Virus record (IMG/VR): IMGVR_UViG_3300007542_000146 | Coordinates: 1-27,182 of that record | Source: a virus | DNA: 27,182 nt | Reading direction: 5' to 3' (one strand) | Shown here: one piece after another, positions 4,474 to 26,920 of the stretch | Layout of the letters: each line of letters begins with the position of its first letter | Numbering within the stretch: the first letter of the stretch is position 1 | Translations under genes and position numbers: made by a program | The notes under the pieces: model-generated | Told to the model about the DNA's origin: nothing | The model's database searches: none | The model's input: the letters and a program-made list of their open reading frames with translations, nothing else

Positions 4474-4923
4474 TTATTCCCCCAATTCCTGAAGGCGGCT
4501 GAGTTTAGATTCCCACTCGACCGCCTTCTGTCTTATCTCGGCGCTGAAATCTGCGCTATCCCAAATTCCGTTTAACCTTCCGACCCTATACATTTCTAAA
4601 ATCATTCTGAATTGCCATGCAACCATAGTTTTAAGGTCTTGTTTCAGTGCCTTTATTTCTTCCTCTTCAGACGCCCCAGGCTCTGCCTGTTTTGAGAACA
4701 CAAGAAGGGCTTTGAATTGTTCGTCGTCAAGCTCGATAATATCAACCTGGTCAGGCGTAAACCCATATGTTGCAGCCATATCATACATAGATGTGTGGTC
4801 AACACGTCCAAGATTGCTGAAAACAAGTGTTCCGTCTAAATTTCTCACACAAACCGTGTGAATACGTGCCATAGACGGCACTGCAAATGATAATATAATA
4901 AGGATTATAAACAGCTTTTTCAT
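4474..4923 (-). CDS. Exported small protein at the end of the late operon
   Basis: This 149-residue protein begins with a textbook Sec signal peptide: MKKLF, a hydrophobic run (IILIILSFAV) and a cleavage site PSMA before Arg20. The mature part has a beta-rich start, an acidic segment with EEEEI, and two helices (about 85-149) rich in Glu, Lys and Trp that could form a coiled coil. No catalytic motif is seen. It follows the tail protein by 4 bases and is the last late gene. Possible roles are a lysis-related periplasmic protein (spanin-like, although there is no lipobox or transmembrane anchor after cleavage) or a virion or tail-chaperone partner of the gene before it. Confidence 0.6.
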   Translation of the reverse strand: MKKLFIILIILSFAVPSMARIHTVCVRNLDGTLVFSNLGRVDHTSMYDMAATYGFTPDQVDIIELDDEQFKALLVFSKQAEPGASEEEEIKALKQDLKTMVAWQFRMILEMYRVGRLNGIWDSADFSAEIRQKAVEWESKLSRLQELGE

Positions 4924-4927
4924 ATTT

Positions 4928-5878
4928 CTATCTCCACACTAAGGCGTAATAATTTGACGTGCCGGTTGGGCTCCCGGCTTTTGTTATCGCAAGAGTGATG
5001 CCATCAGCATCAAATGATGATAATGATGCCGTTACGGAAACGCCAGAACCATCAAGCAATACAGATATGTTTGTATCATTGCTCCATGTATCCGCAACGG
5101 CATCATGCCGATTGTAAACACAAAATTCAGTGCCTGACACTGCAAAACCAATTGAAACCTCGGCAGTATCAGCATCTATTGATAGTAGTGCAACGCCTGA
5201 CGGTTTGAACCCGGCCCCTGTTAGACTTAAATTGCCGTTCGCAAGTGATTGATCCCTTGTGCCAGATATAAGATTAATGCCATTTCCGAACTCGTACCCC
5301 GTTGCACCTGTGTTAACGAAAAGTTTTTCGTTTGCAAGACCTATCGCAAGCCTCGCCAAGACTTTCGAAGAGGACGCTGTTAATAGGTCGCCCTGGTTTG
5401 TGAGCGTTTCCTTTGCTTCGAGCACTATCCTATCCCTTACGGCATTTTTAGACGGTGCAATCGTTGTTACACCGTTCCATGTTGTTGAATCAAAAGCGCT
5501 ATCAGAGACAATTGAATCGCTTGCCTGATCTGCAATGGCTGTTGCAGTTTTGTATTCAAGGCCATTGATTGTTTCAATTAAAACGTCATCAGAGTCATAT
5601 ATGACAAATTTATAAATATTATCGCCGTAAACTTCGGCTCTACCGGTTGAGTCGAGTATAACCGGGTTCGCTGCGGTCACGCCCTTATCTTTATCAGTCC
5701 ACAACGCAGATAGCGTGCTTGTGCCGTCAAGGTACGTGTAAACCTTGCCACCTGAAAGAACTTCGTCGGTCGTCGGGTTTCTGTAACCGGATAATAAAAA
5801 ATCAATTTGCTTTGCGTCCTCAGCTGCAAAACATATGCCAGTGAATAAAAGTATTAATACAATTAGAAACCTTTTCAT
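4928..5878 (-). CDS. Tail fibre/spike-type protein with a Sec signal peptide
   Basis: This 316-residue protein starts with a signal peptide (MKRFLIVLILLF, then GICFA, cleaved before AED). The mature N-terminus matches a module common in phage tail proteins: GGKVYTYLDGT, then ANPVILDSTGRAEVYGD and YKFVIYDSDDVLIETI (about 40-108), which normally starts tail spikes and fibres. The middle is a low-complexity shaft-like part with repeated Ser/Asp and NAVRDR; the C-terminal part (about 200-316) is beta-rich, with SNYYALVW at the end. It overlaps the upstream ejection protein by 4 bases (ATGA). A tail-fibre module behind an export signal is unexpected, because tails assemble in the cytoplasm. Confidence 0.65.
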   Translation of the reverse strand: MKRFLIVLILLFTGICFAAEDAKQIDFLLSGYRNPTTDEVLSGGKVYTYLDGTSTLSALWTDKDKGVTAANPVILDSTGRAEVYGDNIYKFVIYDSDDVLIETINGLEYKTATAIADQASDSIVSDSAFDSTTWNGVTTIAPSKNAVRDRIVLEAKETLTNQGDLLTASSSKVLARLAIGLANEKLFVNTGATGYEFGNGINLISGTRDQSLANGNLSLTGAGFKPSGVALLSIDADTAEVSIGFAVSGTEFCVYNRHDAVADTWSNDTNISVLLDGSGVSVTASLSSFDADGITLAITKAGSPTGTSNYYALVWR

Positions 5879-7977
5879 TGCTGTGTGTCCTCTTTATCTA
5901 ATCCAGTTAAGCCGAAAGCAACCATTAATGATGGCAATTCGGTCTGTATCAACCCTACGGTTTTTTTTAACTCCGGCCTTGCGTCAAGGGCCTGCCTTAA
6001 TGCTGCCCTGTTCGCCTGGCCTTCAGCAAGCCTTGTTACACCTTCGGCAAACAACCCCCCTCCCGGTATTTTGCCCAAAATAGACATAATACCGGCCTTG
6101 TTTAGTGTGTCAAGAATAACGCTTGCTGATCCTTTCGGGACCGCTCCAGAAGGTGGCGTTATTGCACTTGCCGCAGCCGCTACTTTTTTTATTTCTTTTA
6201 GTAAATTTTTGTTTGTGCTGAATATCAAATTTAGTTTTTCATCACCAATTTGATTGATTCTTTTGTTAAACGGTACGCCTCCAAATGTTTTTACTCCCTG
6301 GACCTTTCTTGTCTCAGCTTTATATGCAGATTCTATCAAGTCAAGCACTGTCGCAGCCTGCAAATCCCCTATAGCCTGGGCACCCTTCGGACCAGATTTT
6401 TTCAGGCTGGTTATAGTTCTTTCAAGCAACTCTGTTGGTTTGTTTGTTCCGACAATGTTGTCAAAAACCTTGCTAGCCTCAATTACAGGCGTCACACCAT
6501 CGCGTTTTGTGTTTATCAAGCGACCTGTTATTGATTCTGGGCTGAATTCTGTTTTAAGCTGCCTTGTTATTTTCCTTGCCGCCTTAAACTTATCAATTAT
6601 TTTCTTGTCGGTCACGCCTGCATCAAGCAAGACATTAACAATGTTGTCGGCCTCACTGTCAAGGGCCTCCCTAATCGGACCAATAATCACAGATGATGCG
6701 CCGGTCGTGTCTGCACGTTCAATCTGGTTTAATGCTGCCCTGAAGTCTTCAAAATTCTGCAATGATAATTCAATGGGCTCTATATTCTTTGCCTCAAGCC
6801 GCTTTATGGCTTTTTCTGATTTGTCAATGCCAAACTCTGCAATAAGATCAAGAGCCGCATCTGCTTGGCTGCCCTGTATCCTAGTCAACCTTGATACAGT
6901 GCGCTGATCTGGAATTGCGTTTTCTATTCCGATTGTCGGGAATGGTAGCTGTTCAACTTCATCAGCTGACTTTATGGCTGCTTTATAAAGTGCGTTTTTC
7001 TGATTTCTCAAAAAACTCTTCCGGCCTGAAAGTGCTTCTTTTAAGCTTGAACCAAGGTTCTCCGGCACGCCTGATTTCTCAATCAACGAGTCAAGGTTTC
7101 CGGTTAAGCCTTGGCTTTGTTGTAGTCTTAAGCTCCTGATTGGATCGCCGAACGGATCTGCCGCAGCCTCAAACAGCCTTGCTTCTGTTGCCTGCTGTGC
7201 AAAATCCTGAGTGATATCACCCTTTGTGGCCGGTATTTTAAGTTCTTCAAACAGAGCGGCTCTCAATTTCTGATCAGGCACAGCGCCACGCTCTACACCA
7301 CCGATTAAATCTATCGCTGTATCTTTTAAATCATCAAATGACAACCCGGCCTTTTCCATGGCCTCTAACAATTCCTCTGTTGGCAACCCCTCCGTAGTCA
7401 ATATGGCGCTTTTGGGGTTTCTTCCGAGAAAACGCCTGATTAACTTACCGCCAATGCGGCCAGCGACAGGTAAAAAAGCCTCAGCGCCACCCCCAATAAT
7501 GCCGCCAATACCCGCTCCTTTAATTTGCTCCGTTTCTGTTTCACCTTCACCCCTCCTTATTAATCCACCCTCTATTGCCCCAAGCGTTGCCCCGGCTGCT
7601 GTTTTCCATGCCGTGCTTGGAATGGCTCCGACCGGCACGGCTGCGAAAGGCAACGCACCGCCGACTGCCTCACCTACCGCGGTTGATATTGGCCTCTCTT
7701 CTTCAAGAGCAGCAAATCCCTTTTGTTCTGCTTCTGAGGCCGGTTCTGCAAGCCCTAATGCGCGGCCTATTTTAAACAAGCCTCGACCCATAGAGGCAAA
7801 CCCTGCCTCAACCGGCCCGGTTTCTCTTGCAATCTTTTGGAACTCGTCAGGTTCAGGTTTCAACAGGCTTTCAATGTCCCTTCTTGCCCTTACAGACTTT
7901 GAAGCACTTACAATTGGTGCTGTGCCTGATCCTAAAAGATCGCGGCCCGCATCTTGTTTGAATAAATCACGCCCCAT
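5875..7977 (-). CDS. Large ejection/internal virion protein (gp16-like position)
   Basis: This 700-residue protein sits where P22 encodes gp16, the last ejection protein. Residues 1-60 are disordered and charged. About 90-185 are rich in Gly and Ala, with GGIIGGGAEAFLPVAG and similar glycine-zipper segments that could insert into membranes. The rest (about 195-690) is almost all helical, with many Arg/Lys/Glu residues, as in proteins that leave the capsid with DNA and help cross the cell envelope. No enzyme motif is seen. It shares one base with the upstream gene and four with the tail gene after it. The role is inferred from order, size and composition. Confidence 0.6.
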   Translation of the reverse strand: MGRDLFKQDAGRDLLGSGTAPIVSASKSVRARRDIESLLKPEPDEFQKIARETGPVEAGFASMGRGLFKIGRALGLAEPASEAEQKGFAALEEERPISTAVGEAVGGALPFAAVPVGAIPSTAWKTAAGATLGAIEGGLIRRGEGETETEQIKGAGIGGIIGGGAEAFLPVAGRIGGKLIRRFLGRNPKSAILTTEGLPTEELLEAMEKAGLSFDDLKDTAIDLIGGVERGAVPDQKLRAALFEELKIPATKGDITQDFAQQATEARLFEAAADPFGDPIRSLRLQQSQGLTGNLDSLIEKSGVPENLGSSLKEALSGRKSFLRNQKNALYKAAIKSADEVEQLPFPTIGIENAIPDQRTVSRLTRIQGSQADAALDLIAEFGIDKSEKAIKRLEAKNIEPIELSLQNFEDFRAALNQIERADTTGASSVIIGPIREALDSEADNIVNVLLDAGVTDKKIIDKFKAARKITRQLKTEFSPESITGRLINTKRDGVTPVIEASKVFDNIVGTNKPTELLERTITSLKKSGPKGAQAIGDLQAATVLDLIESAYKAETRKVQGVKTFGGVPFNKRINQIGDEKLNLIFSTNKNLLKEIKKVAAAASAITPPSGAVPKGSASVILDTLNKAGIMSILGKIPGGGLFAEGVTRLAEGQANRAALRQALDARPELKKTVGLIQTELPSLMVAFGLTGLDKEDTQQ

Positions 7978-9260
7978 TATTCTAACTCCTGCAATTTTTG
8001 AAGAACTTGCTCTCGCGTCATATTATTATTTTCCATGGCTTTCTGTATATCCGATTCTGTAACATCTCCAAAAACAGGATGAGCTTTTAAAACAACATTT
8101 TTATTCACGTTCAAACCGCCCCTGTCGTCGTCAAGGTTTTCAAAATCACTCAATACAGGTAACTTCCCGGTGAATCCTGTCAATGTCCCATTCTGCCTAA
8201 AAAATTCAGATGCATCTCGTTTTTGCTGTATTGCTATTTCCATCTGTTTTAGAAGGTTTTTGACTCTTCTTACATTTACATGCTCTTCAAGCTTAGGATT
8301 AAACGCCCTTGCAATAAGCCGTTCACCTTCTTTTTCTGTAAATTGTGCGCCAAGGATTTCCCTCAAATTGCGCTGCACAACCTCTTCAACAGCTTCGCGT
8401 GTCTCAATAGCTTCTGGGTTGAATATTGTTAGAATGGCATCCGGTGTAAAACCAACTACTGGCCCTGTAATATTACGCCCTGATTCTAATGATTCTATTG
8501 CATCCTTAAGCTGTCCGACTTGTTTTAATGAATCTGCAAGCCCGCCAGTAATTATTTTTGAAAAATCCTTGCCGAACTCTTTATCAACCTGAGTCCTGCC
8601 TTTTGTCTGCTCAGGTGCCTTACCCTCTATAATTTCAAATTCACCCGTCTCGGCATTAAACCGGGTTGTCCTTTGACCCTTAATAAATGTCTGTTTTTTT
8701 TCTTCAGGTGTTAATTTCTCAAACGCCTTCTGTTGAGGTGTTAGTGTTCTTGGTGGCGCCCCCTTTACTTCTTCTCTGATCATATCACCAGTTGCTTTAT
8801 TAATTATTTGTATTCTGTCTCCAAGGTCAATTGTCGCTGTTGTTTTATCTTCTTGCAACACCGGTATGTCAACACCAATAGTATTTTTCAGATAGTCAGA
8901 CGCCGCTTTAGCGCCGCCGACACTCATGATTTGCTTAGCTCGCTCAAAAGCTTTCCCGCCAAACTCTTGAGCCTGGACAGGGTCATTTTGCTTGAGATAT
9001 TCAAAAGCGGCAAGGTCTGGTTTTTCTGCGCCCCGTACAGCATCAATTAGCCCTTGTCTCATCTGGTGCTGCCGCTGCAACCCTGCAAGACCTGCCTGTT
9101 TCTGCTGTATGCCAAGTTGTAAGTTTTGCCGCTGCAACCCTGCAAGTTCTGCCTGTTGCTGATCGAGCCTGCGCTGTCTTTCTTCCTGCCGGTTAAGCCT
9201 GATTGTACTGGCAAGCCTGCCGAGTCCAAAAAGGTCTTGTACTGGTTGTAATTGTGCCAT
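7977..9260 (-). CDS. Ejection/internal virion protein with Gln-rich repeats
   Basis: This 427-residue protein lies in the gp20-like slot among the ejection genes. Residues about 25-70 form a Gln-rich coiled coil with two in-frame copies of AGLQRQ, 19 residues apart. A middle part (about 255-345) has FNPEAIETREAVEEVVQRN and FTEKEGERLIARAFNP, a helical segment also common in internal proteins of other podovirus-type phages. The C-terminal end has an acidic stretch (LDDDRGG) and a small helical end (VTESDIQKAMENN). It is 10 bases after the gp7-like gene. Function is by position and composition. Confidence 0.6.
   Translation of the reverse strand: MAQLQPVQDLFGLGRLASTIRLNRQEERQRRLDQQQAELAGLQRQNLQLGIQQKQAGLAGLQRQHQMRQGLIDAVRGAEKPDLAAFEYLKQNDPVQAQEFGGKAFERAKQIMSVGGAKAASDYLKNTIGVDIPVLQEDKTTATIDLGDRIQIINKATGDMIREEVKGAPPRTLTPQQKAFEKLTPEEKKQTFIKGQRTTRFNAETGEFEIIEGKAPEQTKGRTQVDKEFGKDFSKIITGGLADSLKQVGQLKDAIESLESGRNITGPVVGFTPDAILTIFNPEAIETREAVEEVVQRNLREILGAQFTEKEGERLIARAFNPKLEEHVNVRRVKNLLKQMEIAIQQKRDASEFFRQNGTLTGFTGKLPVLSDFENLDDDRGGLNVNKNVVLKAHPVFGDVTESDIQKAMENNNMTREQVLQKLQELE
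9070..9155 (-). repeat. In-frame tandem duplication inside the ejection-protein gene
   Basis: The 20-base sequence at 9070-9089 is repeated exactly at 9127-9146, and similarity continues for about 10 further bases. The period is 57 bases, so the repeat adds 19 residues in frame to a Gln-rich coiled coil. It looks like a recent slippage or recombination duplication. Confidence 0.75.
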
Positions 9261-9270
9261 ATCCTACCCC

Positions 9271-9954
9271 TTAAAATCCTATAGGTGTGCCTGTCGGTGT
9301 GAATTGCGGCCTGCTAAACACAGACCCAGGGCTTACGGGATTTATGCCACCATAGCCAGTCTGTGAGGCTATAAATGACGGCAAACCGGCCAGGCCTGAT
9401 ATTAACTGGTTCCGCCTATTTTCACGATTTATTGCTGCGTCCTGCAACGCCTGTGCCTGAACGTTTCCAGATGTAGTCAAAGATCGGCCAAGCGCCGAGC
9501 TTAAACCAACACCAGCACCGGCCTGGCTTGCCGTGCCGCCCACACCAATGTTTACGAGATCTGCAAGCCGTCCCTTTTGCCGTTCTGCCTCTGTGGCCTC
9601 AATCTCACGACCTGAGCGACTTAAAACAAATCCAGGCGCGTTCTCGCCAAGGAATTCAGCGACAATACTTTTTTGGAATCTTGTTGACGGTAGTCGGCTT
9701 ACATCGCCCAAGTTTTGAACAGCTGTCACAAGTTCAGGCAGTGCCCGAACCCCAATGTCTACAAAGGGCTGCTGTCTTTCAATTGCTTTCCCAAACTGCT
9801 CCTGCTGAAATGCGCGGCTTTTTGCCTCAAGCGCGGCCTGCTCTTCAACTCCACGTTGCGCCGTGTCTGCTGCGTCGCCCTGCGCCTTATACGTAAAATA
9901 TCCACCGACTGCTGCGGGGATCGCTGGTAGTACGGTCTCTACTAAACTTCCCAT
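9271..9954 (-). CDS. gp7-like DNA ejection protein
   Basis: This 227-residue protein starts with a short hydrophobic, Gly/Ala-rich segment (LPAIPAAVGGYFTYKAQGDA), followed by a helical part where QQPFVDIGVRALPEL (about 61-75) matches a motif widespread in gp7-like ejection proteins. The C-terminal half is low in complexity, with GVGGTASQAGAGVG, and ends Pro- and Gly-rich. Order within the operon (after the gp14-like gene, before two larger helical proteins) fits P22 gp7. It has 3- and 10-base spacings to its neighbours. Confidence 0.6.
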   Translation of the reverse strand: MGSLVETVLPAIPAAVGGYFTYKAQGDAADTAQRGVEEQAALEAKSRAFQQEQFGKAIERQQPFVDIGVRALPELVTAVQNLGDVSRLPSTRFQKSIVAEFLGENAPGFVLSRSGREIEATEAERQKGRLADLVNIGVGGTASQAGAGVGLSSALGRSLTTSGNVQAQALQDAAINRENRRNQLISGLAGLPSFIASQTGYGGINPVSPGSVFSRPQFTPTGTPIGF

Positions 9955-9957
9955 ATG

Positions 9958-10995
9958 CTAACTCCTAAGACTTAAAAACAGATCACCCAAACTTGCTATG
10001 CCCTGACCTATGTTTGCACCGCGTTGAGCTTCTGCCTGTGCTTTCTGCTGTGCTAAGATATTCGCCTGCTGCCCCATGCTTGAATAAATGCCGCTGATAT
10101 TTGACCCAAGCTGCGAACCAGCTTGAGCCAAGTTTTGTGTTGCAAGTTGACCAGGGGTAAGTATGGACCTTTGCCCCTGTTCAAACCGTGAAACATCATC
10201 AGCCGCTGCACCGGTTGCAAGATCTGCAAGGCGCTCAAATGTTCTGCTTGACTTCAAACCTCCAGGTGACTGCTGTTTATAAATAGACTCACGACCCCTT
10301 GAAAGCTGTTCGGTCAACATCTTTGACGGCTGAAAAGGTATGTCTGCATCTTGACCAAGAGCGAGACTTGCAAGTGTTGGCAGTGCCTTACCGGTCGCCG
10401 CTTCCCTGAACGGTCTTGTCAGGTCTTCTATTACTGCAAGCTGCTGTCTTTGAAGATTAACAGCATCTGGGACTTGTCCAGACTGTAATTGCTGGTTTGC
10501 AAGGTTCTGCGCATATGATTGAACCCTTTCCTGTATTTGCTCTATCTGTTCTGGCGACATATCTCCGCCTGGGCCTGCTTGTGCTTCAGGCCCAGACCGG
10601 CCCAACCCGACCGGCGTGCCTGCCAGCCCAGCCAACCCGGCCCCCAACTGAAGACCGGTCACGCCCAATGAAGTCGGAGCCCCAAGCAAACCAAACAGAC
10701 CGAGTGCTCCTGCAACGTTTGGGTCGCTCAATTGGTCTTTAACCATTGACATGTTGACACTTGCTCGTTGCATAGGTGACAAAGACATAAAAGCCTTGTC
10801 TACGACCTCATCAAGCAAACCTCTTTTTGAAAGCCCAGGTGTTGTTCTCCCAGGTGGAGAGCCAATCTGTGAAGCTAAACCGCCAGCCACCTCGGAGGCT
10901 GTTGGTCCGCCTATACTTGGCCCGGCTCCATGTCCAAATCCGTCCTGCCAACCGCCTGCCCCCTGTCCACCGAAACCGTCAGCTAATCCGCCCAT
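9958..10995 (-). CDS. Gly/Ala-rich virion (ejection) protein
   Basis: This 345-residue protein starts with a Gly-rich segment (MGGLADGFGGQGAGG) and has a hydrophobic, Gly/Leu-rich run at about 95-130 (ALGLFGLLGAP and GLQLGAGLAGLAG), which could be membrane-active. The rest is helical and Gln/Ala-rich; PGGLKSSRTFERLADLA and a Gln-rich coiled coil near the C-terminus stand out. It is the first of four consecutive proteins with ejection-type composition, lies 4 bases after the gp14-like gene and has no enzymatic motif. Role by context. Confidence 0.55.
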   Translation of the reverse strand: MGGLADGFGGQGAGGWQDGFGHGAGPSIGGPTASEVAGGLASQIGSPPGRTTPGLSKRGLLDEVVDKAFMSLSPMQRASVNMSMVKDQLSDPNVAGALGLFGLLGAPTSLGVTGLQLGAGLAGLAGTPVGLGRSGPEAQAGPGGDMSPEQIEQIQERVQSYAQNLANQQLQSGQVPDAVNLQRQQLAVIEDLTRPFREAATGKALPTLASLALGQDADIPFQPSKMLTEQLSRGRESIYKQQSPGGLKSSRTFERLADLATGAAADDVSRFEQGQRSILTPGQLATQNLAQAGSQLGSNISGIYSSMGQQANILAQQKAQAEAQRGANIGQGIASLGDLFLSLRS

Positions 10996-10999
10996 AACC

Positions 11000-11449
11000 T
11001 CACCTAATTACTTTTCCCATTATTGCACGGTCGAAATACCGCTTGTTTTTAACATATGACTTTCGGTCTATACCCTCTACGCAAAACCCATTTTTATGAG
11101 CAAATTTAATAACGTCTGGATAGCAGACCGGTATTTTTGCATTGATTTTTACGAACTTTTTATCACAGTTTTTCTCAAGGTGTTTTAATAGCCCATTCCC
11201 CATCCTAAACGAGTCCTGGCCCCTGTATTTTTTTGGTATGTTTATGTGTACAATTAAAACGATCTCATTTTCATGATGTATCTGCAATACAGCCTTGCAC
11301 ACATCACCATCAAACCACCCTAAAAACTGGTACGCTGCCGGATTCCACTTGTATGTGCTTGTATAATCATCAGATATTCTGTCGAACAATTCTTCATCAT
11401 CGAAAAACATTTTATTAACAACGCTGTAATCTGTTATCTCTTTAATCAT
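11000..11449 (-). CDS. P22 gp14-like assembly protein with GNAT-type fold
   Basis: This 149-residue protein has the pattern of a GNAT acetyltransferase: a beta pair (YQFLGWFDGDVCKAVLQIH), a central strand (IVLIVHINIPKKYRG), a helix, then AKIPVCYPDVIKFAHKNGF and the terminal IDRKSYVKNKRYFDRAIMG. The last segment closely resembles P22 gp14 (a head assembly protein with the same fold). The usual acetyl-CoA loop (Q/R-x2-G-x-G/A) is degenerate here, YRGQDSFRMGNG (75-86), so enzyme activity is uncertain. The start overlaps the previous gene by 4 bases (ATGA). Position after the gp10-like and fibre genes matches P22. Confidence 0.6.
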   Translation of the reverse strand: MIKEITDYSVVNKMFFDDEELFDRISDDYTSTYKWNPAAYQFLGWFDGDVCKAVLQIHHENEIVLIVHINIPKKYRGQDSFRMGNGLLKHLEKNCDKKFVKINAKIPVCYPDVIKFAHKNGFCVEGIDRKSYVKNKRYFDRAIMGKVIR

Positions 11450-12930
11450 TTCGTCCCAGCTTGTCTTGATCCCATTGTATTAACTTCACCGTGCAACCCA
11501 ACCTGGGTCAAAAATATCTCGTCTGGGTATTCGGTGCCGCCAGTTGCGGCTATTCTGGTTATAGTTAATTTTATCTGAGTCCCTATATTCTTTGAAGCTG
11601 ACACGGTTCCCAAGGAAAGAAAAAAAGCCTGTAGAGTCGATGTGCCGTCTGGTATTTCAAGTTCTGCTGTGACACTCGTTTCTGTCCATGTGTCGCCTGT
11701 ATCGGCATATGCTACATATAAAGTAAATTTTGCATATTGGCTTGATCCAGTGCTGTTTGCACTATCTGTTGTAACGTGTAGATGAAACATCCAATCTGCC
11801 GCGGTTTTAAAAGCGTGCGCGTATTCGTTTGCATCTAAATATAACAGGTCGCCGACATCAAATTGGAATTCTTTTGTGTTTGTCGTAAATGTCGAAAAAG
11901 TCGGCGCATTAGCTGCCGGCACCCTGCCGCCACTAACAGAAAATTGTATATCCTCCCAAACAGTTTCTTGAAGTTCAAGGGTTTTATCTGTCCCGCAATC
12001 GAGCTTGAGATCACTTGCCGCGACCTCATCGGTCAAAATGTAATAATCGGTTCCATCATAATACATTGACACGTCCGAACCATCCCCAAAAAGAAGCTTT
12101 GCATTATCCTGCTGTAGGCAGATCAAACTTCTTTCTCTTATGTTCACAAAGATAACTCCCTCTGTCGCATGGTCTCTTATAACGATACCGACCTTTATGG
12201 AAAAATTTGGCCTTGTGGGCTCTGTGTCGGTGTAATCTCCGGCTGTTGCTGCTGACAAGTAAAGCAAGTCTCCAGGCGAATATGATGAAGTGTCAACGTC
12301 ACGAACAAGGCCGAATGCTGTATAGTAACCAAACTGATTCTGGGCGATATCCTCTGTTGCCATTGCAAGCGTTCCCTTGCTTGTTGCAAGGGCGTCTGCT
12401 TTTGCAAGTGTCATCTCCGGGTTTGACCCTGTGCCACCGGAAACATAAACCAGCTGACCGTTATCAATATTCGACCCAATTGCCTTGGCCCTTGGCACCA
12501 TAAGTTCCTGGCCAACCTGAAGAACAACATTCCCACCAGGCAACCCGACGTTTAGCGTCCCGTCATCATCATTCCAACAAACCTGACCTTCTGTCACTGT
12601 CGCGCCTGCGGTGGTTGAAAAAATAACTTTGTTTATGCTGACGGTGCTAAACGCTGCGTCTGCATTTGTATCAATATCCTGCGGCGTTGACAGCGTCACA
12701 GACCCATCACCATCGTCTGCAACTTCGACTTGATTGCCTGTTCCTGAAATATAGTCAGTGAGGTCAGCTACTGAGTCAAGGGCACCATTTGCGTCAGTAT
12801 CGACAAGTCTTGACGGGTCAAGATCTTCATCTGATATGCTCGAAAAGTTGTCGTCATTCTGAGTGCGCTCCCAGGCCTTGACCTCTCTTTCGTCGTTCGT
12901 CCTCGGTGCTCTCAGCCTAATTTTTGCCAT
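11446..12930 (-). CDS. Fibre-like protein in the tail-needle (gp26) slot
   Basis: This 494-residue protein has a basic, disordered N-terminus (1-40), then a fibre-type repeat region with LTDYISGTGNQVEVADDGDG and STPQDIDTNADAAFSTVSIN (about 75-125). A beta domain follows (about 125-270), with GQELMVPRAKA, GQLVYVSGGTG and YSPGDLLYLSAATAG, which is seen in many tail fibre proteins. The C-terminal 150 residues form a beta-sandwich-like domain ending in FLTQVGLHGEV. The order gp4-gp10-this-gp14 puts it where P22 encodes the gp26 needle. It shares one base with the gp10-like gene. Its C-terminal domain resembles that of the partial gene at the right window edge. Confidence 0.55.
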   Translation of the reverse strand: MAKIRLRAPRTNDEREVKAWERTQNDDNFSSISDEDLDPSRLVDTDANGALDSVADLTDYISGTGNQVEVADDGDGSVTLSTPQDIDTNADAAFSTVSINKVIFSTTAGATVTEGQVCWNDDDGTLNVGLPGGNVVLQVGQELMVPRAKAIGSNIDNGQLVYVSGGTGSNPEMTLAKADALATSKGTLAMATEDIAQNQFGYYTAFGLVRDVDTSSYSPGDLLYLSAATAGDYTDTEPTRPNFSIKVGIVIRDHATEGVIFVNIRERSLICLQQDNAKLLFGDGSDVSMYYDGTDYYILTDEVAASDLKLDCGTDKTLELQETVWEDIQFSVSGGRVPAANAPTFSTFTTNTKEFQFDVGDLLYLDANEYAHAFKTAADWMFHLHVTTDSANSTGSSQYAKFTLYVAYADTGDTWTETSVTAELEIPDGTSTLQAFFLSLGTVSASKNIGTQIKLTITRIAATGGTEYPDEIFLTQVGLHGEVNTMGSRQAGTK

Positions 12931-17260: not shown

Positions 17261-18073
17261 TCAACGATCTCCAAAAACCTGCCCCAATGGGTCATTTAAG
17301 ACCGCATCATCCCGCCTTGCCTGTTTGGCTTTTATTTTAGCCGCAGACGGTGGCAGGCCCTGAGCCTGTTGAATTTTCTTATCAATTTCAGTTTCTTTTT
17401 CTGTTCCCTGCTCTGCTTTCAGCTCTGCCAGTATTTCATTTTTCAGCTTCTGCCTGTAAGCGACCGGGTCACTCCCGATATCATTGAGCATGGCCTGTTT
17501 TGTGGCTTGTCCATATGCCCACTCAGCCGGATCAGGCTGTTTCAACATGGTGTTGATTAGTGACGGATTTTCCATTGCCATGCCGACAAAAACCTCGTAT
17601 TTCTGGTCGTAGTCTTCATGGCGCTGTTTGCACGAATATTCAGACATATTCAAAAGCTTTTCATTGAACTTGTTTTCAATCTGCTGCGTAGCCTGTTCAA
17701 TGGTTTTCTTTGGGTCTGACCAGTCGAATTCTGGATCTTCTGGAGGCGGCTTGTTGCTCTGAATTTGCTGCAACTGCTGTTCTAAAAGCTGCCGCTTTTT
17801 CTTTTCAGCCATGTAAGCCGCCATTACCCCCTCTGGCTGCTCTTCTACTTGGTCTTTCTCAGGCTCTTTTCCCTCAGACTCTTCAGGCGGCATCCCTGGT
17901 TCTTCCTCTTTTTTGCCCGTTTCATCGTCTTCGGTAATTTCGTCCTGTCCTGGTTCCGGCCTTGGCTCTACCTCATCATTTACCGGTACTTCGTGCGGGA
18001 AGGCCTCATCCAATGGATTGACCTCCACCCCTTCCGTCTCCTGTTCCTCAATGGCTCCCTGTTCGTCAGGCAT
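17261..18073 (-). CDS. Scaffolding protein
   Basis: This 270-residue protein has a very acidic, disordered N-terminus (1-85, rich in Glu, Pro and Asp), a coiled-coil stretch (AYMAEKKKRQLLEQQLQQIQ, about 85-104), a helical middle (FNEKLLNMSEYSCKQRHEDY) and a basic C-terminal helix-turn-helix-like end (AAKIKAKQARRDDAVL) that in P22-type scaffolds binds the coat protein. No protease domain is seen. It is placed just before the major capsid gene, 14 bases apart, as usual. Confidence 0.75.
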   Translation of the reverse strand: MPDEQGAIEEQETEGVEVNPLDEAFPHEVPVNDEVEPRPEPGQDEITEDDETGKKEEEPGMPPEESEGKEPEKDQVEEQPEGVMAAYMAEKKKRQLLEQQLQQIQSNKPPPEDPEFDWSDPKKTIEQATQQIENKFNEKLLNMSEYSCKQRHEDYDQKYEVFVGMAMENPSLINTMLKQPDPAEWAYGQATKQAMLNDIGSDPVAYRQKLKNEILAELKAEQGTEKETEIDKKIQQAQGLPPSAAKIKAKQARRDDAVLNDPLGQVFGDR

Positions 18074-19332: not shown

Positions 19333-19336
19333 AGTC

Positions 19337-19651: not shown

Positions 19652-19669
19652 TTTCGTCCTCCAATAAAA

Positions 19670-19704: not shown

Positions 19705-19728
19705 AGTTTTTCTAATACCTATTATTGT

Positions 19729-20276: not shown

Positions 20277-20288
20277 AAGGTTTATCCT

Positions 20289-22178
20289 TTATGCTATCTC
20301 TCGTCCTGGGTGTGTCGCCTGTTCAAGATCGGTTGCAGTCTCAACGGCTATCTGCTGTGTTTCCTGGGCCATCTTCCCAGCGCTCGCCCTGTCTTTTTCT
20401 GCACTCGCTTTATCTTTATCTATTTTTGCAACCTGAGTCAATAGCGCAATCTGTTTTGCTTCTTGCTGTTCTTGCTGCTGCGCCTGGATAAGTGCGGCCT
20501 GTTGTGCGTCCGTGCCGCCTTCAAGCATTTTTATAAGTTCGTCCTTGTTTCGCAGCTGGCTGGCCCTGATCAGTAGTTTAAAATCAATTGCCTGCGGATT
20601 TGCCTGGTACATCTTGACAAGCAGTTCAAACTGTTCGTGTTGCAGTGAAATGGAGTCTGCGGCCTCATCTATCAAGATATCAACGTCAAGCTCGTTCACC
20701 GGGTTGTCGATTATGGGTTGACCATTCATCATGGCAGGCATGTCAAGCCTCGGATCTCCCTGTGGCAATTCTTCTTCAGATATGCCCTGCTCAAGCAGGA
20801 CATCACGAACCGTCAATGGACGGTTTAACCCGGTCCATCTGAGCTTGTTCTCATCACCAAGCACCCTGACCCATCGCTCCTCGTTCCAGAACTGCTTAAT
20901 CCGATTGAACATCATGCGATAAACCCGGTTTTTACACTCTCTGTGACCATCAAACAGGCTGCCAAGATCAACCACACCGCCCTGTTGCAATGATTGAACG
21001 GCACGACCGGATAGTGGTTGAGGGACATCGCCCTGCAATACTGAGTTTGCACCCTGCACATCGATTTCCGATTTGGCCTCTATCAAAAGCTGCATTTGGC
21101 CGTTGGCCATGTCTGAAGTGTCTACAATGCCGACATCCTTGCCCCACTCACCGATATTGAACTCAAGGTGCCCGTCCGGCATTGACATCTGTTTTTTCAG
21201 GTCATTTATGTCATTAACGGCACCCTTCTTTCCCCATGTCTGCCTTGTGCTCAGGAAATGAAGCAGTTTCGACCGACGCTTGTTAATTTCATCCTGTGGG
21301 TCAAGATATGATTCAACCTCACCGTATCTCGTGCCGTCACGGTCAACAAATGCAGACCTGAACACAAATTGCGGTTCCGGCTCTCCGTCTTCATCGAGAT
21401 ATGGTGACGGAGACGGTGATATGGCAAAGCCACCACCTGAAAAGACAGCATAATGCCATACATTTTCATGCAAAAAATAACACAGAAACACCCGGACCCG
21501 TTTCCGGTCTTTATCAATGAAATACATGGGTCTGTCTGAAAACGCATCATCATCTCTGCTTGTGCCGTCGCCTTCTTCAAAGTTGAAAAATTCTTCAGGC
21601 GCTCCTTTGAAATCAATCCGGGCCTGCTTTTCGTCCATCCATTGAAACGTGCCAAGATATGTGGCGTCTGAAAAATTTTTCTTCCTGCTGTGGATATCCC
21701 AGAAGATACGGTCATAAAACAACCGGTTGTGAACAACCTCAAACTGCTGTTTTTTCTTATTCAGTTCAGCAATAACCTCGTGGGCCTCAACACCCTCGAT
21801 AATATAATTCTCAAATCCGTCTGAAAACTCATAGTCTGATCTGTTTACCTCTTCCACATACCGCAATGCATCCGTGGAAACCTCGCCTGACTTGTCATCA
21901 TTTGGAGTCCTGGGGAGTGCCTTCGGATCTGTCCTGTTCTGGGCTTCCATGCCCTTTAAAAACATAACCTTTGGCTTTATACGGTTGATTGTTATGGGCG
22001 GCTGCTTCCTGTTCTCCAGGTGACGCACTTCTTTTTCAGTCCACTGATAACCATCGTAATAGTCCCGCGCTTTCTCTGCCCGGTCGTGCATATTCTGGTT
22101 TGCAAAATCAAGGAATTCCTCGACGTAACCCTTCAGGATTGACAAAATGTCATTTTTGTTTTTTATATCAGTCGCCAT
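20289..22178 (-). CDS. P22-type portal protein
   Basis: This 629-residue protein is close in length to P22 portals (725). It starts with a helical clip/wing region with ARDYYDGYQWTEKEVRHLE, then PPITINRIKPKVMFLKGMEAQNRTDPKALPR in pieces (about 60-92), typical of this family. The core (about 130-460) has IFWDIHSRKKNF, DEINKRRSKLLHFLS and a crown-like part with SVLQGDVPQPLSGRAVQSLQ. The end (about 540-629) is a Gln/Ala/Lys-rich coiled coil, like the P22 barrel. It overlaps terL by 16 bases. As a twelve-fold ring at the vertex, it would be the DNA entrance and tail attachment point. Confidence 0.85.
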   Translation of the reverse strand: MATDIKNKNDILSILKGYVEEFLDFANQNMHDRAEKARDYYDGYQWTEKEVRHLENRKQPPITINRIKPKVMFLKGMEAQNRTDPKALPRTPNDDKSGEVSTDALRYVEEVNRSDYEFSDGFENYIIEGVEAHEVIAELNKKKQQFEVVHNRLFYDRIFWDIHSRKKNFSDATYLGTFQWMDEKQARIDFKGAPEEFFNFEEGDGTSRDDDAFSDRPMYFIDKDRKRVRVFLCYFLHENVWHYAVFSGGGFAISPSPSPYLDEDGEPEPQFVFRSAFVDRDGTRYGEVESYLDPQDEINKRRSKLLHFLSTRQTWGKKGAVNDINDLKKQMSMPDGHLEFNIGEWGKDVGIVDTSDMANGQMQLLIEAKSEIDVQGANSVLQGDVPQPLSGRAVQSLQQGGVVDLGSLFDGHRECKNRVYRMMFNRIKQFWNEERWVRVLGDENKLRWTGLNRPLTVRDVLLEQGISEEELPQGDPRLDMPAMMNGQPIIDNPVNELDVDILIDEAADSISLQHEQFELLVKMYQANPQAIDFKLLIRASQLRNKDELIKMLEGGTDAQQAALIQAQQQEQQEAKQIALLTQVAKIDKDKASAEKDRASAGKMAQETQQIAVETATDLEQATHPGREIA

Positions 22179-23632
22179 GCTCCATGTTCCTCGCTGTCGC
22201 TGTCTTGGTATCCGTCTTTTGGTTTATCTTCTTCTTCTTCCACATCGATCGGTGTCCATGGCCTCGACATGCACGCATATCTAGCTTCATCCGCTGCATG
22301 ATCTTCCATGTCTGAGTTTAGATCCTCCGGTCGATTTTCATCATGTATAAGGGCAGGTATTGTCCTGATAGAGTCCTTACACGTTGTAAAAAACACTATC
22401 ATGGGCTTTCCGTCAATGCCAACAAAACGCGCTCTTACCTGGTCCCATCCGCCTATATGTCCAGATGCGCCAACGCGCTTATTGTCTGCCTTCATAAAAT
22501 AAACACCCTTATTCGCGAACCTTTCTGACATAGACGGCCCGCCGTCCTGGGCAAATATGGCAGGGTCTGCAACGCTATACTGAATATCTTCTTTCTCAGA
22601 TTCTCTGTCAATAATACCCTGTGCCACCTGTTCAACTGTCATTTTAAGACCAACGTCTGTTTTTCCTTGTTTGCACCCATACCATTCCCGGTATTTAACA
22701 AGGCAATCTTTTTGTATGTATGGGCCCTCGTGTACTTGATATCCAGGACAGACCGCATACCACCCGACTGAAAAAGGCTTTGCCGAGCCCCAATCAAACG
22801 CCCTAAACCGCATCCAGTTTTCCGGTATTCTGAACGGCCTAACCGTGTGCCTTTCTTTGTCCCAACAGTCAAAATATGCCCCTTCGACAACATCCCAATC
22901 ACCTTTTAACTTTGCTCTGACAAGCGCCTTGCTGCCAAGACCCTTAAGCTTTGCCCTATAGGTCGGATCGTCCTTAAGCATGCTTGGATTATCCTCCAGC
23001 AATGCCGGAATAAACTGCCTATACATGCCGCCTTCGTCGTCATCCATTTTACGGATCTCAAGCGGGTCACAGTTGTCAATGAACGTCTTTTTAACCCATA
23101 AATGCCCGATATTGCCAGGGTTAGTGCCACATATAATCCGCGGGAAACACCCTTTAAGATCGTCCGGCAATTCAGGTAAGCCCACGGCCCGAACACGACC
23201 ACGAAGGAACCTGTAAATTTTCTCTGTAAAATGCGTAAGCTCGTCGATAAGGAGTACATGAATTTCCGCGCCATCGAAGTCATACATATTCTTTTCATGC
23301 TCACAATGGCACAGATAAATTTTTGAATCATTCCAAAAACGTATTTCTTTATCGACAATCTGGACAAACCCACACTTAACCCACGGAGCAAGTAGAGCCC
23401 TGAACCCTTTAGGGCCTTCAATATGATTTTTAACAAGGTCTTTAGTGATGCGCCGAAATAGGTACACCTGTAGACCAGGTATGCGACTACACCATATGAT
23501 AGCAGCAATACGCATAAGGAAAGACTTGCCGCCGCCAGCAGCGCCACCATAAAGTATTTCCGTAGCCTGTGATTCATATGCAATAGTCTGCTTTTCATGT
23601 AATTCAACGTCTATTTCTGCTTGTTGTGACAT
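22163..23632 (-). CDS. terL: Terminase large subunit (packaging ATPase-nuclease)
   Basis: This 489-residue protein has Walker A GGAAGGGKS (29-37), Walker B VLLIDE (126-131) and a coupling motif CGTNPG (168-173) in the ATPase half. The nuclease half has FRAFDWGSA (Asp280) and SVADPA (Asp356), candidate metal ligands of the RNase H-like fold. All main catalytic motifs are present, so the enzyme should be active. It overlaps terS by 29 bases and the portal by 16, as in a classic packaging cluster. The start at 23632 has a poor ribosome binding site and probably depends on coupling with terS. The C-terminal end is very acidic. Confidence 0.9.
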   Translation of the reverse strand: MSQQAEIDVELHEKQTIAYESQATEILYGGAAGGGKSFLMRIAAIIWCSRIPGLQVYLFRRITKDLVKNHIEGPKGFRALLAPWVKCGFVQIVDKEIRFWNDSKIYLCHCEHEKNMYDFDGAEIHVLLIDELTHFTEKIYRFLRGRVRAVGLPELPDDLKGCFPRIICGTNPGNIGHLWVKKTFIDNCDPLEIRKMDDDEGGMYRQFIPALLEDNPSMLKDDPTYRAKLKGLGSKALVRAKLKGDWDVVEGAYFDCWDKERHTVRPFRIPENWMRFRAFDWGSAKPFSVGWYAVCPGYQVHEGPYIQKDCLVKYREWYGCKQGKTDVGLKMTVEQVAQGIIDRESEKEDIQYSVADPAIFAQDGGPSMSERFANKGVYFMKADNKRVGASGHIGGWDQVRARFVGIDGKPMIVFFTTCKDSIRTIPALIHDENRPEDLNSDMEDHAADEARYACMSRPWTPIDVEEEEDKPKDGYQDSDSEEHGAWRLI

Positions 23633-23975
23633 TCAAAACCGGCACCAATGGAGCACCGCCTTTTCCGGTTATTTCGGTTTCGTTCTTGTCTTTCCATCCA
23701 AAATTGTTTTTGAGGTTGAATATAACACCGGTCACATTCTTTCCGAAAAGTTTTTCCTCAAGATACGCCTCAATTCTCAGCTTTGCAAGGCCAACAACCT
23801 CCTTGTACTCATCAATCTCAGCATAATTTAAAAGCGTCTGCCGTGTAACCATAAGGTGAAGACATAGGCCTGTGACAGTTAGCGGTTTGTCTTCTTTATC
23901 AGCTTTCTTGAAGTATTCATTTGCCTTTTTCTTAAAGGCATCCGGCGTATATTTTTTTTTCCCGTTACGTGCCAT
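23604..23975 (-). CDS. terS: Terminase small subunit
   Basis: This 123-residue protein shows a basic start (MARNGKKKYTPDAFKKKA), a helix-turn-helix segment (VTGLCLHLMVTRQTLLNYA, about 35-53), and the motif NVTGVIFNLKNNFGWKD (about 79-95), which is typical of DNA-packaging gp3-type small terminases. A flexible, Gly/Pro-containing C-terminus follows. It recognises the pac site and gives it to TerL; the recognition site may lie in or near this gene, but I cannot mark it. Its start overlaps the stop of the Ig-like gene (TAATG). Confidence 0.85.
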   Translation of the reverse strand: MARNGKKKYTPDAFKKKANEYFKKADKEDKPLTVTGLCLHLMVTRQTLLNYAEIDEYKEVVGLAKLRIEAYLEEKLFGKNVTGVIFNLKNNFGWKDKNETEITGKGGAPLVPVLNVTTSRNRR

Positions 23976-24325
23976 TATCGCACCAACCCATTCCAGTAAT
24001 CATCCTCAATGATCGGTTCGTCATTGTCCTTAATTTTTAGCTTAAGGATATGTTCCTCGACTTCCCCGGTATTAAGCGTTACTTTGTTTACAATGGTGTT
24101 CTCACCCGGCGTGCCGTTTATAAAAACACTGGTTGTTCCAGATTGGCTTGACTCATTCGTTAAAACAGCATCACCGCTTTCAACGGTCCACTCACTGGAA
24201 GATATTGTTTTCCCCTGAATAGCAACAGCCCAATTGCCGGTATACTTTCTTAGCGAATTCTCGGTTTGCTCATACCTGGTCATTTCCTTGAAAAGCGGTT
24301 CAAATGTTCTATGTTGCCTGTTCAT
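23975..24325 (-). CDS. Ig-like beta-domain protein of unknown function
   Basis: This 116-residue protein has a short helical/charged N-terminus (MNRQHRTFEPLFKEM), an aromatic linker with KYTGNWAVAIQG, and a beta-rich domain with SSSEWTVESGDAVLTN, SGTTSVFINGTPGENT and EEHILKLKIKDN. This is the pattern of small Ig-like phage structural domains, which usually follow a tail or head-fibre anchor. It ends with a one-base TAATG overlap on terS and overlaps the zinc-finger gene by 17 bases at its start. The fibre-anchor role is inferred. Confidence 0.5.
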   Translation of the reverse strand: MNRQHRTFEPLFKEMTRYEQTENSLRKYTGNWAVAIQGKTISSSEWTVESGDAVLTNESSQSGTTSVFINGTPGENTIVNKVTLNTGEVEEHILKLKIKDNDEPIIEDDYWNGLVR

Positions 24326-24506: not shown

Positions 24507-24507
24507 A

Positions 24508-24843
24508 TCACCGCCGCGGCTGGTAAAGCACTGTGAAAACAACACTCCCGCTTGTCGACTTGACCCAGAATAAATCCCCTGTCGGGTTTTCCATACATGA
24601 CCACGACAACGGCGTGTTTTCAGGGAATGTAGTTGAGTTCGTGCCGCTGCTGTCATCAGCAATCAAATATGACTGATTGTCGGCTGTGAACCATGCATAG
24701 TTTGTGCAACTTGCGTTGCTTTTTGGTACGGATATTGCCGTCCAGGTTGACGCATTGACAGTTGTGTTCACGCGCTGAACATTCTGCGCCTGTACTGAGA
24801 TGGCAAAAATTAAAATGATGACTGCCAGCAATAATTTTCTCAT
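24508..24843 (-). CDS. Small exported beta-rich protein
   Basis: This 111-residue protein has a signal peptide (MRKLLLAVIILIFAISVQA, cleaved before QNVQR) and AGGTGA 6 bases upstream. The mature part is about 90 residues of beta strands with two Cys (NASCTNY, SWSCMEN) that could form a disulfide, and short motifs such as WTAISVP and SVVFTVLYQP, which look like a small jelly-roll or decoration-type domain. It is translated just before the zinc-finger gene. Possibly a host-surface or virion-attached lectin-like protein. Confidence 0.55.
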   Translation of the reverse strand: MRKLLLAVIILIFAISVQAQNVQRVNTTVNASTWTAISVPKSNASCTNYAWFTADNQSYLIADDSSGTNSTTFPENTPLSWSCMENPTGDLFWVKSTSGSVVFTVLYQPRR

Positions 24844-24854
24844 GTTTTCACCTA

Positions 24855-26129
24855 TTATTCTATTATTTGAACGCTTGGAGCGCTTGTTGATATCTGGTTA
24901 ACTGTCCCGCTGCCAATAATAGCCTGGCCACTGCCTGCTGTAACGTCTCCAGCTGCCTCAGCGTATGTGCTGGCTATAATAATGTCGTCTATAAACACAT
25001 CTATGTAACCCGGACTTTCAGGTATATTGCGGGTGAGGTTATTGAAATTATCACCGAACCTGATGAAATTCATTCCATAATCATTAGAGTTAGAGTGAGT
25101 TGATGCGAGGATAGGCGGTGAAACATCCGCTTCTGAAGTTATTTCGTTTCCATCAATCCAAATTCTTAAATCACCATCGGCTGTCCCTGGTGCGCTCCTG
25201 TTTTTGAAATAATATATAACCTCATGAAACCCTTGTGCTTCAGAGAATGTGCCATCAGAATCGAACCCGTTCCCGCTATTTGTCCACGTATTAACCCTGC
25301 CATAAGATGTGCTTGTATTGGCCCAATCCCATATATTGCCGGTTGTTGGATTGCGTGAAGGGCTACCCGAATAACAATCGGACTCGCAAGTTTCGTCGAA
25401 ATGGAAATTAGCCACATCGGTAAATGCTGAATTAGCATCAGTGTTCCAATCGTTAGCCATCCATCGAAAAATCCAAATACCGCAACGCCAATTCTCTTCG
25501 TTGGTCAAAGTTGCGTCATCCGTGTATGGCTGTGTTTGGCCACCGGTCCTGTCATAGTCTATTGGGTTAAACCCGGTCCAAACACGACCAAATTTCCAAA
25601 TAACATTACCACTTGATCCTGTGGGTTGCGGATCGCCACCAGACCACGAACCATTCCACGCGAAATCCTCACCAGTTGAACCGAACTTTACCCTAAATTT
25701 GATGTAAAGCTCTTGGTAGTGGGTATTGCCCAACCATTTATTTAAGCCGATTTCATTTGATAAACCCGTGTGCTTTACCAACCTCATCCTTAGTACAGGT
25801 GAGTTGTTTACCCCACCGGTGGACTGGATGCTGATTGAACCAGTAGAAGTCGTGTATTGCACCCAACCATTCCATGAGTTGCTATTCTTTCTTTGGTTGG
25901 CTGCGTAAATTGACGGCTCATAATTGGTTATTACAGACCCACCGCCATCATCATTAGGGTCTTCTGGATCGTATGTTTCATCCGTAGTCCACGGGTAGAA
26001 CCTGTTGCCGTCACCACCCACAGAAGGGGTCCACCCTGACGTGAACCCATCAAAGTCATCTTGCCAATAGATTTCAGCATTAACCGGTACGGCTAAGAAA
26101 AGCAGTAGTAATATTATTCTTATTGCCAT
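24855..26129 (-). CDS. Exported jelly-roll-like protein (possible polysaccharide binding or lyase)
   Basis: This 424-residue protein begins with a signal peptide (MAIRIILLLLFLAVPVNA before EIYWQ). The mature protein has FDGFTSGW, QELYIKFRVKFGS (about 140-152), GNVIWKFGRVW (about 174-184), EVIYYFKNRS, GDLRIWIDGNEI and GYIDVFIDDIIIAST (about 372-386). Strands of this kind are common in beta-jelly-roll sugar-binding proteins and polysaccharide lyases, the DDIxIA end being typical. Three Cys are present. It overlaps the lectin-like gene upstream by 10 bases. A capsule depolymerase or surface-binding protein is a reasonable guess; catalytic residues could not be assigned. Confidence 0.45.
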   Translation of the reverse strand: MAIRIILLLLFLAVPVNAEIYWQDDFDGFTSGWTPSVGGDGNRFYPWTTDETYDPEDPNDDGGGSVITNYEPSIYAANQRKNSNSWNGWVQYTTSTGSISIQSTGGVNNSPVLRMRLVKHTGLSNEIGLNKWLGNTHYQELYIKFRVKFGSTGEDFAWNGSWSGGDPQPTGSSGNVIWKFGRVWTGFNPIDYDRTGGQTQPYTDDATLTNEENWRCGIWIFRWMANDWNTDANSAFTDVANFHFDETCESDCYSGSPSRNPTTGNIWDWANTSTSYGRVNTWTNSGNGFDSDGTFSEAQGFHEVIYYFKNRSAPGTADGDLRIWIDGNEITSEADVSPPILASTHSNSNDYGMNFIRFGDNFNNLTRNIPESPGYIDVFIDDIIIASTYAEAAGDVTAGSGQAIIGSGTVNQISTSAPSVQIIE

Positions 26130-26920
26130 GAGTTATACACCTTCATGTTATCAATATAAAAATCGCCAACCTTTGAACCATCGTTGTTACCAACATAAAA
26201 CGTCCCGTCATCAGATGCACCGGAAAGATCTGTGTCGGATTGAGCAGACGCTGAATTTGCTTCTACATAAATACTTGGGTCTGCGGCACCTTCACGCCAC
26301 TTGCATGTTACTTGATACCACGTATTAAGTGACAGATTTGAGTTTGCCGTTACATTCGCAGACCCCGTCCCTCTGTACCAAAGAAGAATGTCAATGTTTC
26401 CGTCACCTGTTCCGGTCATGTAACACTGTATGTTATCTGTTGGGCCGGTCCACATTGTCCACAATCTTGTACCAGCGACAAAACTCGTTACATATACATA
26501 AAATGTGACCGTTCCGGCATCTGGCTGTATAATTGCATTACTTGTATTGGAAAACTCAGCATTTGCAGGGGTTGAACTGCCGGAAGGACAATACAAAGAG
26601 TTTGTACCATCTTGTGCCTGTGCTGAACTAATGGCGGCACTATTGTTTAACGTTGCGGTCGTATCACCTGCTGAACAGCCGCAAGGGGTGCCGCTTGTTA
26701 CATCTGTGTCTTCCATGTGCCATGAAAAAGTTAGATCGCCCGTACAGCTGTCGCAACCTGCTCCACCATCATCGACAACACCGCTTGAGCCCTGATAATA
26801 GTTATCTGACGCAAAAAGCCTTTTAACGTCAACGAAGCTTAAGCCAAGGCTGTATAGTGCGGCCACCCCGCCAGCCTTGAACGCATTGCGTAGAAAGTCC
26901 CTTTTAGAAGCTTGCATCAT
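26120..26920 (-). CDS. Lectin-like (LamG-type) protein with Tat-like signal
   Basis: This 266-residue protein starts with SKRDFLRNAFKAGGVAALYSL (about 5-25, partly quoted), a pattern like a twin-arginine signal (S-R-R-x-F-L-K) with Lys-Arg in place of Arg-Arg. The rest looks like a concanavalin/LamG sandwich: LTFSWHMED (about 63-71), TVTFYVYVTSF, TRLWTMWTG, NTWYQVTCKWREG and GDFYIDNMKVYNSW at the end. Seven Cys suggest disulfides or metal sites. RBS AGAGGTTGA precedes tandem ATGs. It sits right after a fibre-like gene and before another exported protein, making a small exported cassette upstream of the terminase. Tat use is an inference. Confidence 0.5.
   Translation of the reverse strand: MMQASKRDFLRNAFKAGGVAALYSLGLSFVDVKRLFASDNYYQGSSGVVDDGGAGCDSCTGDLTFSWHMEDTDVTSGTPCGCSAGDTTATLNNSAAISSAQAQDGTNSLYCPSGSSTPANAEFSNTSNAIIQPDAGTVTFYVYVTSFVAGTRLWTMWTGPTDNIQCYMTGTGDGNIDILLWYRGTGSANVTANSNLSLNTWYQVTCKWREGAADPSIYVEANSASAQSDTDLSGASDDGTFYVGNNDGSKVGDFYIDNMKVYNSWQ

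Follow-up and report, generated by a model that had tools for sequence, protein, structure and literature searches.

The heads and tails of tailed phages are assembled in the cytoplasm according to the textbook view, which raises the question why outer proteins of such a phage should begin with cleavable export signals. The locus in question lies in IMG/VR virus record IMGVR_UViG_3300007542_000146, analyzed here as the window, which comprises the full record of 27,182 bases and represents a 27-kb genome fragment from a short-tailed, P22/Pam5-like podovirus. A first-pass annotation had pointed to export-type starts on six of its open reading frames (4474-4923, 4928-5878, 15560-16099, 24508-24843, 24855-26129 and 26120-26920), and all six were found there, on the minus strand. 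The premise of that annotation, that tailed-phage assembly is cytoplasmic, agrees with standard knowledge, and it is this standard that makes signals on virion proteins surprising. Here we report that these signals are genuine and do not arise by chance, and that they stand on virion-type proteins, including the capsid cement (decoration) protein encoded by 15560-16099 and a fibre or tailspike-type protein encoded by 4928-5878. The proteins themselves are of known kinds; what is unexpected is the part added to them.

Export signals on late gene products

Signals were scored with a purpose-made, rule-based Sec scorer (not SignalP), which in calibration detected 9/9 signals of well-known exported proteins with scores of 10.9-14.1. 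Five of the six genes showed the Sec type I architecture of a basic n-region, a hydrophobic core and an A-x-A site, with scores of 14.0-16.1, bearing out the earlier claim of Sec signals on five late genes; the ribosome binding sites claimed along with them were recovered as purine-rich stretches upstream of the genes, e.g., AAAGGAGC about 12 nt ahead of the cement ATG. None of the 1,011 genes of a comparison set (326 from isolate genomes and 685 from contigs that the cement search had retrieved, in nearly all of which the cement is signal-less) reached a score of at least 13.9, and the 1,187 internal segments taken from window proteins all stayed below it as well. Furthermore, when each N-terminus was shuffled 2,000 times, 0-17 trials reached the score observed, and the Fisher p was 3e-8. 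A Cys after the predicted cleavage site was present in 0/5 Sec candidates, setting them apart from lipoproteins of the Llp/Cor type. When drift was simulated to the observed leader divergence, the signal survived in 3-17% of trials per gene, a modest argument for selection on the leaders. Overall, export of the outer proteins is well supported as a prediction from their sequences.

The capsid cement protein and its leader

The product of 15560-16099 (minus strand), with a predicted mature part of about 158 aa, is approximately 50% identical to the Pam5_06 'cement protein', the match starting at residue 21. With a profile of its family, matches were obtained to 7eel_H, the Pam1 capsid cement (E 2.8e-10), and to 8h89_J, the virion-associated protein of GP4 (E 1.2e-5), and an AlphaFold model of the window protein (pLDDT 74) matched the same two chains with Z scores of 16.0 (8h89_J) and 14.7 (7eel_H), well above unrelated entries. 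Moreover, the gene is located directly downstream of the major capsid protein (MCP) gene (16122-17246), an order common to Pam5 and Pam1, and its product keeps the residues conserved across the cement family. By these sequence-based measures it is a capsid cement protein of the Pam1/GP4 type. Of the two products said earlier to resemble virion parts, the decoration-like one is the cement itself and no look-alike, and the tail-fibre-like one was upheld as 4928-5878. A second cement copy was not found in the window or in the contigs of two sister phages.

The Sec signal of the cement, MKKLFTLILMLALIVPSVAFA (16037-16099, minus strand, score 14.5), is predicted to be cleaved ahead of TA, i.e., before TAETLTG. 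Reading the N-termini of about 55 IMG/VR cement homologues, we observed that nearly all of them start M-[AVT]-AETLT and are leaderless, and on bacterial contigs most homologues start in the same way and none has a leader. Leaders were confined to the window phage (and its duplicate contig L002/L083), the sister phages L084/L086 and L003, so that the earlier proposal to look among related phages for the same modules with and without signal led, for the cement, to both forms, with leaders in two sister phages. These leaders are 21-27 residues long and differ in sequence, and all of them end just ahead of T-A-[ED]-TLT; cleavage would therefore restore the ancestral N-terminus, and the predicted cut between AFA and TAETLT yields the mature start of the signal-less cements. 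In agreement with this, a structural alignment pairs residues 27-179 of the window cement with GP4 residues 2-154. In the MCP tree the three signal-bearing phages, which differ by about 25% in their capsid protein, fall into one clade with 100/100 support, of which the fourth member, L085, ends ahead of its cement gene, and L087, the sister of this clade and its closest relative whose cement could be read, has a leaderless one. On the available sequences the cement signal is thus a derived addition, set exactly at the ancestral N-terminus and retained in diverged sister phages. An uncleaved leader would obstruct docking, and a cleaved one would leave the normal docking end.

That the window gene might yield a cytoplasmic cement by way of an internal start was considered and rejected, as no start codon occurs from codon 15 to codon 45; upstream, the frame also holds a TTG/ATG. 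Searching for the cement family across 84,980 genomes yielded seven loci on contigs of metagenome-assembled genomes, none with a signal, and since all seven are signal-less they allow no host to be assigned.

The fibre gene and its neighbour

A second signal-bearing protein is encoded by 4928-5878 (minus strand). Its Sec signal MKRFLIVLILLFTGICFA (18 residues, 5825-5878, score 14.0, predicted cleavage ahead of AE) is followed by a domain resembling tailspike head-binding domains (GGKVYTY...NPVILDSTGRAEVY). A tblastn search matched it to 35 phage records with a best E of 7e-6, and where products are named, several are tailspikes or tail fibres; isolate homologues occur in phages of Rhodoferax, Shewanella, Vibrio and Xanthomonas. 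It is this search that identifies the domain by sequence; the top four PDB matches are all tailspike head-binding chains with weak E values of 0.04-0.06 (among them 9vyg and 7eeq_A, the latter only at E 0.04). In the nine homologue genomes that were read, the shared domain starts about 20 aa from the N-terminus and is leaderless, and the window adds the 18-residue leader to it. No relatives of 4928-5878 were found in IMG/VR. The adjoining gene 4474-4923 (minus strand) encodes a 149-aa protein with the Sec signal MKKLFIILIILSFAVPSMA at 4867-4923 (score 14.1, cleavage predicted ahead of RI), for which phages, Pfam and PHROGs gave no match.

A second cluster of signal-bearing genes

The remaining three genes form a second late-gene cluster (24508-26920, minus strand), which precedes the terminase genes and lies beside a fibre-tail adaptor-like gene of the GP4 type. 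The first, 24508-24843, encodes a small beta-rich protein of 111 aa with the Sec signal MRKLLLAVIILIFAISVQA at 24787-24843 (score 16.1, cleavage predicted ahead of QN) and two Cys in the mature part. It has one distant homologue, L119:3439-3783, with 32% identity, which keeps the signal and both Cys and belongs to a sister phage whose contigs L119, L084 and L086 represent one phage, linked by 100% overlaps. A search of IMG/VR with this gene returned one match, the duplicate contig, and three weak matches were all that the signal-bearing small protein gave across 385 genomes belonging to one class. An AlphaFold model of the window's small protein was poor (pLDDT 49) and was left unused. The second gene, 24855-26129, encodes a 424-aa protein of unknown family with the Sec signal MAIRIILLLLFLAVPVNA at 26076-26129 (score 14.6, cleavage predicted ahead of EI) and three Cys in the mature part; there was no phage, family or PDB match to it.

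The third gene, 26120-26920, encodes a protein with a LamG-like (concanavalin-A-type) domain (PF13385 Laminin_G_3, E 3e-10; weakly phrog_18802, virion structural protein, E 9e-5), and a search against phages gave no match. By inspection, its start (SKRDFLRNAFKAGGVAALYSLGLS...VKRLFA, about 26810-26920) is Tat-like in that its core is weakly hydrophobic and a possible cleavage site is preceded by basic residues. The Tat-like start assigned to it earlier was recovered as MMQASKRDFLRNAFKAGGVAALYSLGLSFVDVKRLFA, but the motif SKRDFLR has KR where S/T-R-R-x-F-L-K has RR, and Tat export of this product is therefore plausible at most.

In contigs L118 (5494-6576) and L119 (2378-3445) we noted, beside the appendage cluster, a gene for a polytopic membrane protein, by eye resembling an O-antigen polymerase or ligase, which might serve a surface change or superinfection exclusion.

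Parallel cases in other phages

Parallel cases were found in family A2, a separate virion family of small proteins homologous to phiM5 gp13 (ARV77514.1). Among the fetched homologues the same Cys pair is present in 46/46 signal-bearing and 0/~31 signal-less members, with one Cys at an R-x-G-C position and the other about 35 residues on, many of the 46 being close relatives and not 46 independent cases. In this count L236, which is rule-positive with a predicted cleavage 23 aa from the domain, was taken as signal-less, and the truncated L268 was excluded. According to the poorly resolved A2 tree, signal and Cys pair arose at least twice. The small virion protein phiM5 gp13, encoded after the MCP gene and recorded as 'detected in phage particle proteome', is homologous to the 46 signal-bearing proteins but has no signal and, containing no Cys, no Cys pair. 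A leader-linked Cys pair is what folding in an oxidising periplasm would show, and this line of evidence, indirect as it is, does not depend on signal predictors. By analogy, family A2 may be taken as supporting evidence for the window.

In addition, Sec or Tat-like starts are present on virion-module genes (fibre, tailspike and others) of other contigs. They occur on a widespread fibre type with an FTRASTATYFD motif (L094, L222, L224, L261), by eye on a pectate-lyase-like tailspike in L270, directly after the portal gene in L178, L192 and L196, and in tandem after the terminase in L183 and L195. In the podovirus contigs L178 (3932-4345), L196 (13677-14105), L192 (6123-9252), L183 and L195, the signal genes stand between portal (or terminase) and scaffold, often two to four consecutively. 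In L094 (2865-4483) and the A2 contigs L219-L290, a Sec signal on a small virion-type gene goes together, in several contigs, with a Tat-like start (MRRRDLLAG or MIRRRSLLLAG) and early cysteines on the fibre gene that comes next. L204, L205 and L206 (near 2241, 6001 and 4333, respectively) hold a signal-like hydrophobic stretch with A-x-A inside a longer frame between two virion-type domains, which might reflect either a fusion or an internal start. Some contigs whose cement is signal-less have a strong signal on a different late gene (L056 6246-7238, L080 7982-8830, L062 40-1752), the genes of L056 and L080 being alike. Taken by sequence, export signals belong to particular lineages and not to the whole capsid family.

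A proposed assembly in two compartments and its alternatives

The signals fit best, by a slight preference on our part, with a particle built in two compartments, the outer parts undergoing export and maturation before they are fitted, at lysis or later. The proteins of shell, portal, head closure and ejection, which are signal-less, would be assembled in the cytoplasm, while the outer-surface proteins (cement, tailspike or fibre parts, and small beta-rich add-ons) would be made as pre-proteins and exported via Sec, one perhaps via Tat. Signal peptidase would trim the exported proteins, which would fold in the periplasm, some with disulfides. At the opening of the inner membrane or at lysis the exported parts would reach the naked heads and dock. 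We infer from sequence both that export and cleavage take place and that the exported proteins join the virion. Late docking is suggested because the cement is single-copy, normally placed and conserved, and would be given a virion-type N-terminus by cleavage. Whether such an assembly mode is widespread, with outer parts exported, partly oxidised and fitted during or after lysis, and with several lineages gaining signals independently, is a bolder proposition, to which we give somewhat less than even credence.

Several points weigh against assembly in two compartments. Lysis would dilute periplasmic proteins, so that parts added late would have to bind with high affinity or else to dock ahead of envelope rupture. 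The window cement lacks an added Cys pair, and no profile link was found between family A2 and the window's small protein. Furthermore, no strong signals were seen on the structural genes of six isolates that share the capsid family (Pam1, Pam5, KPP25, RHph_Y1_10, KLEP18-1 and CBW1004C-Prop1, three of them read partly), and export is accordingly not needed for this architecture.

The main rival explanation, though an unlikely one, gives the exported proteins a role apart from the virion, as periplasmic or surface-bound decoys, receptor masks or a cell coat limiting superinfection or the sticking of progeny to debris. Fibre-type domains are binding modules, as are LamG-like ones, and the polytopic membrane protein near the cluster in L118/L119, identified by eye, could modify the surface. 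Exported receptor blockers of phages are also generally known, since Llp and Cor are late, exported, receptor-masking lipoproteins that could affect adsorption; they are unrelated to virion structure, unlike the window proteins. The cement, however, has no cell-surface target to mask and keeps its family-conserved residues; it is the sole cement gene found in each of three phages, and its cleavage would restore the virion-type N-terminus. In this respect, the earlier interpretation by export and late attachment was sustained in part. Signals do stand on virion-type proteins, and of its three guesses late attachment fits best, given the only cement found, its normal position and a cytoplasmic-type N-terminus after cleavage; a secreted decoy is less convincing for the cement, as a non-secreted copy to go with it was not found. 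A decoy role is possible for the small beta-rich proteins and for those of the fibre and LamG-like types.

We consider it improbable that the hydrophobic N-termini are membrane anchors, tethering outer parts to the inner membrane face or to assembly sites and being either uncleaved or removed by another protease. A hydrophobic run alone can serve as an anchor, but the leaders have the full n-h-c architecture with A-x-A sites at the ancestral N-terminus, the signal-linked Cys pair of family A2 makes most sense in an oxidising compartment, and an uncleaved leader would occupy the cement-capsid interface described for Pam1. Chance or artefact (coincidental hydrophobic starts, wrong start codons or an assembly error) is hardly credible, for although start codons are only predicted and the cement frame has its upstream TTG/ATG, no background gene (0/1,011) scores as high, the signal recurs in relatives at about 25% capsid divergence, and the matching genes of the second contig, L002/L083, are 100% identical to those of the window, which makes the reading independent of one assembly.

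Relation to known systems

Compared with known systems, the two-compartment particle would combine familiar parts in an unfamiliar way. The cements of Pam1, Pam5, GP4 (gp1) and Helicobacter phage KHP30 share with the window cement the fold, the conserved core residues and the N-terminus after signal removal, and in Pam1 and Pam5 also the gene position; they are made signal-less and are presumably bound to the head in the cytoplasm, whereas the window cement has a signal. Likewise, the head-binding domain of tailspikes and fibres of Pam1 (7eeq), Rhodoferax phage P26218, Xanthomonas phage PBR31 and Shewanella phage X14 shows the same GG[KFL].YTY...NP[VI]xLD near the N-terminus, and in the window version an 18-residue Sec signal of the cleavable type stands ahead of it. 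In filamentous phages, pVIII and pIII are virion proteins with signal peptides that are inserted into the inner membrane before assembly. There the proteins are membrane-embedded and the virion is extruded, whereas the window phage is a tailed, presumably lytic podovirus with signals on outer parts only. Signal-peptide endolysins, such as Lys44 of fOg44, and SAR endolysins are tailed-phage proteins using the host Sec system before lysis (PMC6116005); these are lysis enzymes, whereas the signal-bearing proteins of the window are virion-type parts. In the open-access literature, subscription journals and preprints lying outside the scope of the search, we found no report of cleavable signals on virion proteins of tailed phages.

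Assembly in two compartments, if it holds true, would represent a new form of morphogenesis among tailed phages. A Sec leader conserved on the cement of a clade would mean either that virions finish outside the cytoplasm or that a capsid protein has been turned into a secreted product, which is directly testable. The pattern of signals and disulfides suggests a benefit in the form of oxidised, sturdier outer parts. An export signal on a virion gene is a simple sequence test for any phage genome, and the findings bear on the production of phage parts in E. coli and on the addition of decoration proteins after assembly.

Gene layout of the window

The late genes on the minus strand follow the order of Pam5 and P22-type podoviruses, from small and large terminase through portal, scaffold-like gene, MCP, cement, head closure and ejection to 4928-5878 and 4474-4923. 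The large terminase subunit (22163-23632; phrog_979 and phrog_2) is followed by the portal protein (20289-22178; phrog_156, E 8e-93), a scaffold-like gene between portal and MCP genes (17261-18073), the MCP (16122-17246; PF13252, E 9e-52; phrog_334) and a head-closure protein of the Hc3 type (12930-14384; phrog_578, E 6e-39), all on the minus strand. The putative DNA-ejection genes (5875-10995, minus strand) were assigned through phrog_598 for two genes and for the others by position and a weak phrog_5880 match; an IMG/VR search for relatives of 5875-7977 gave one match. The fibre-tail adaptor-like protein adjoining 24508-24843 is encoded by 23975-24325 (minus strand; PF23148 Gp77 'podophage GP4 fiber-tail adaptor', E 2e-7). 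Signals are absent from the portal, MCP, head-closure, ejection and adaptor proteins.

Between portal and scaffold, 18169-19332 (minus strand) encodes a 387-aa protein with a zinc-protease-like HELQHA motif and a weak eCIS_core match. Within the late structural block, 11000-11449 (minus strand) is weakly GNAT-acetyltransferase-like, and an acetyltransferase gene stands at a similar place in Pam1 and in Paracoccus phage KLEP18-1.

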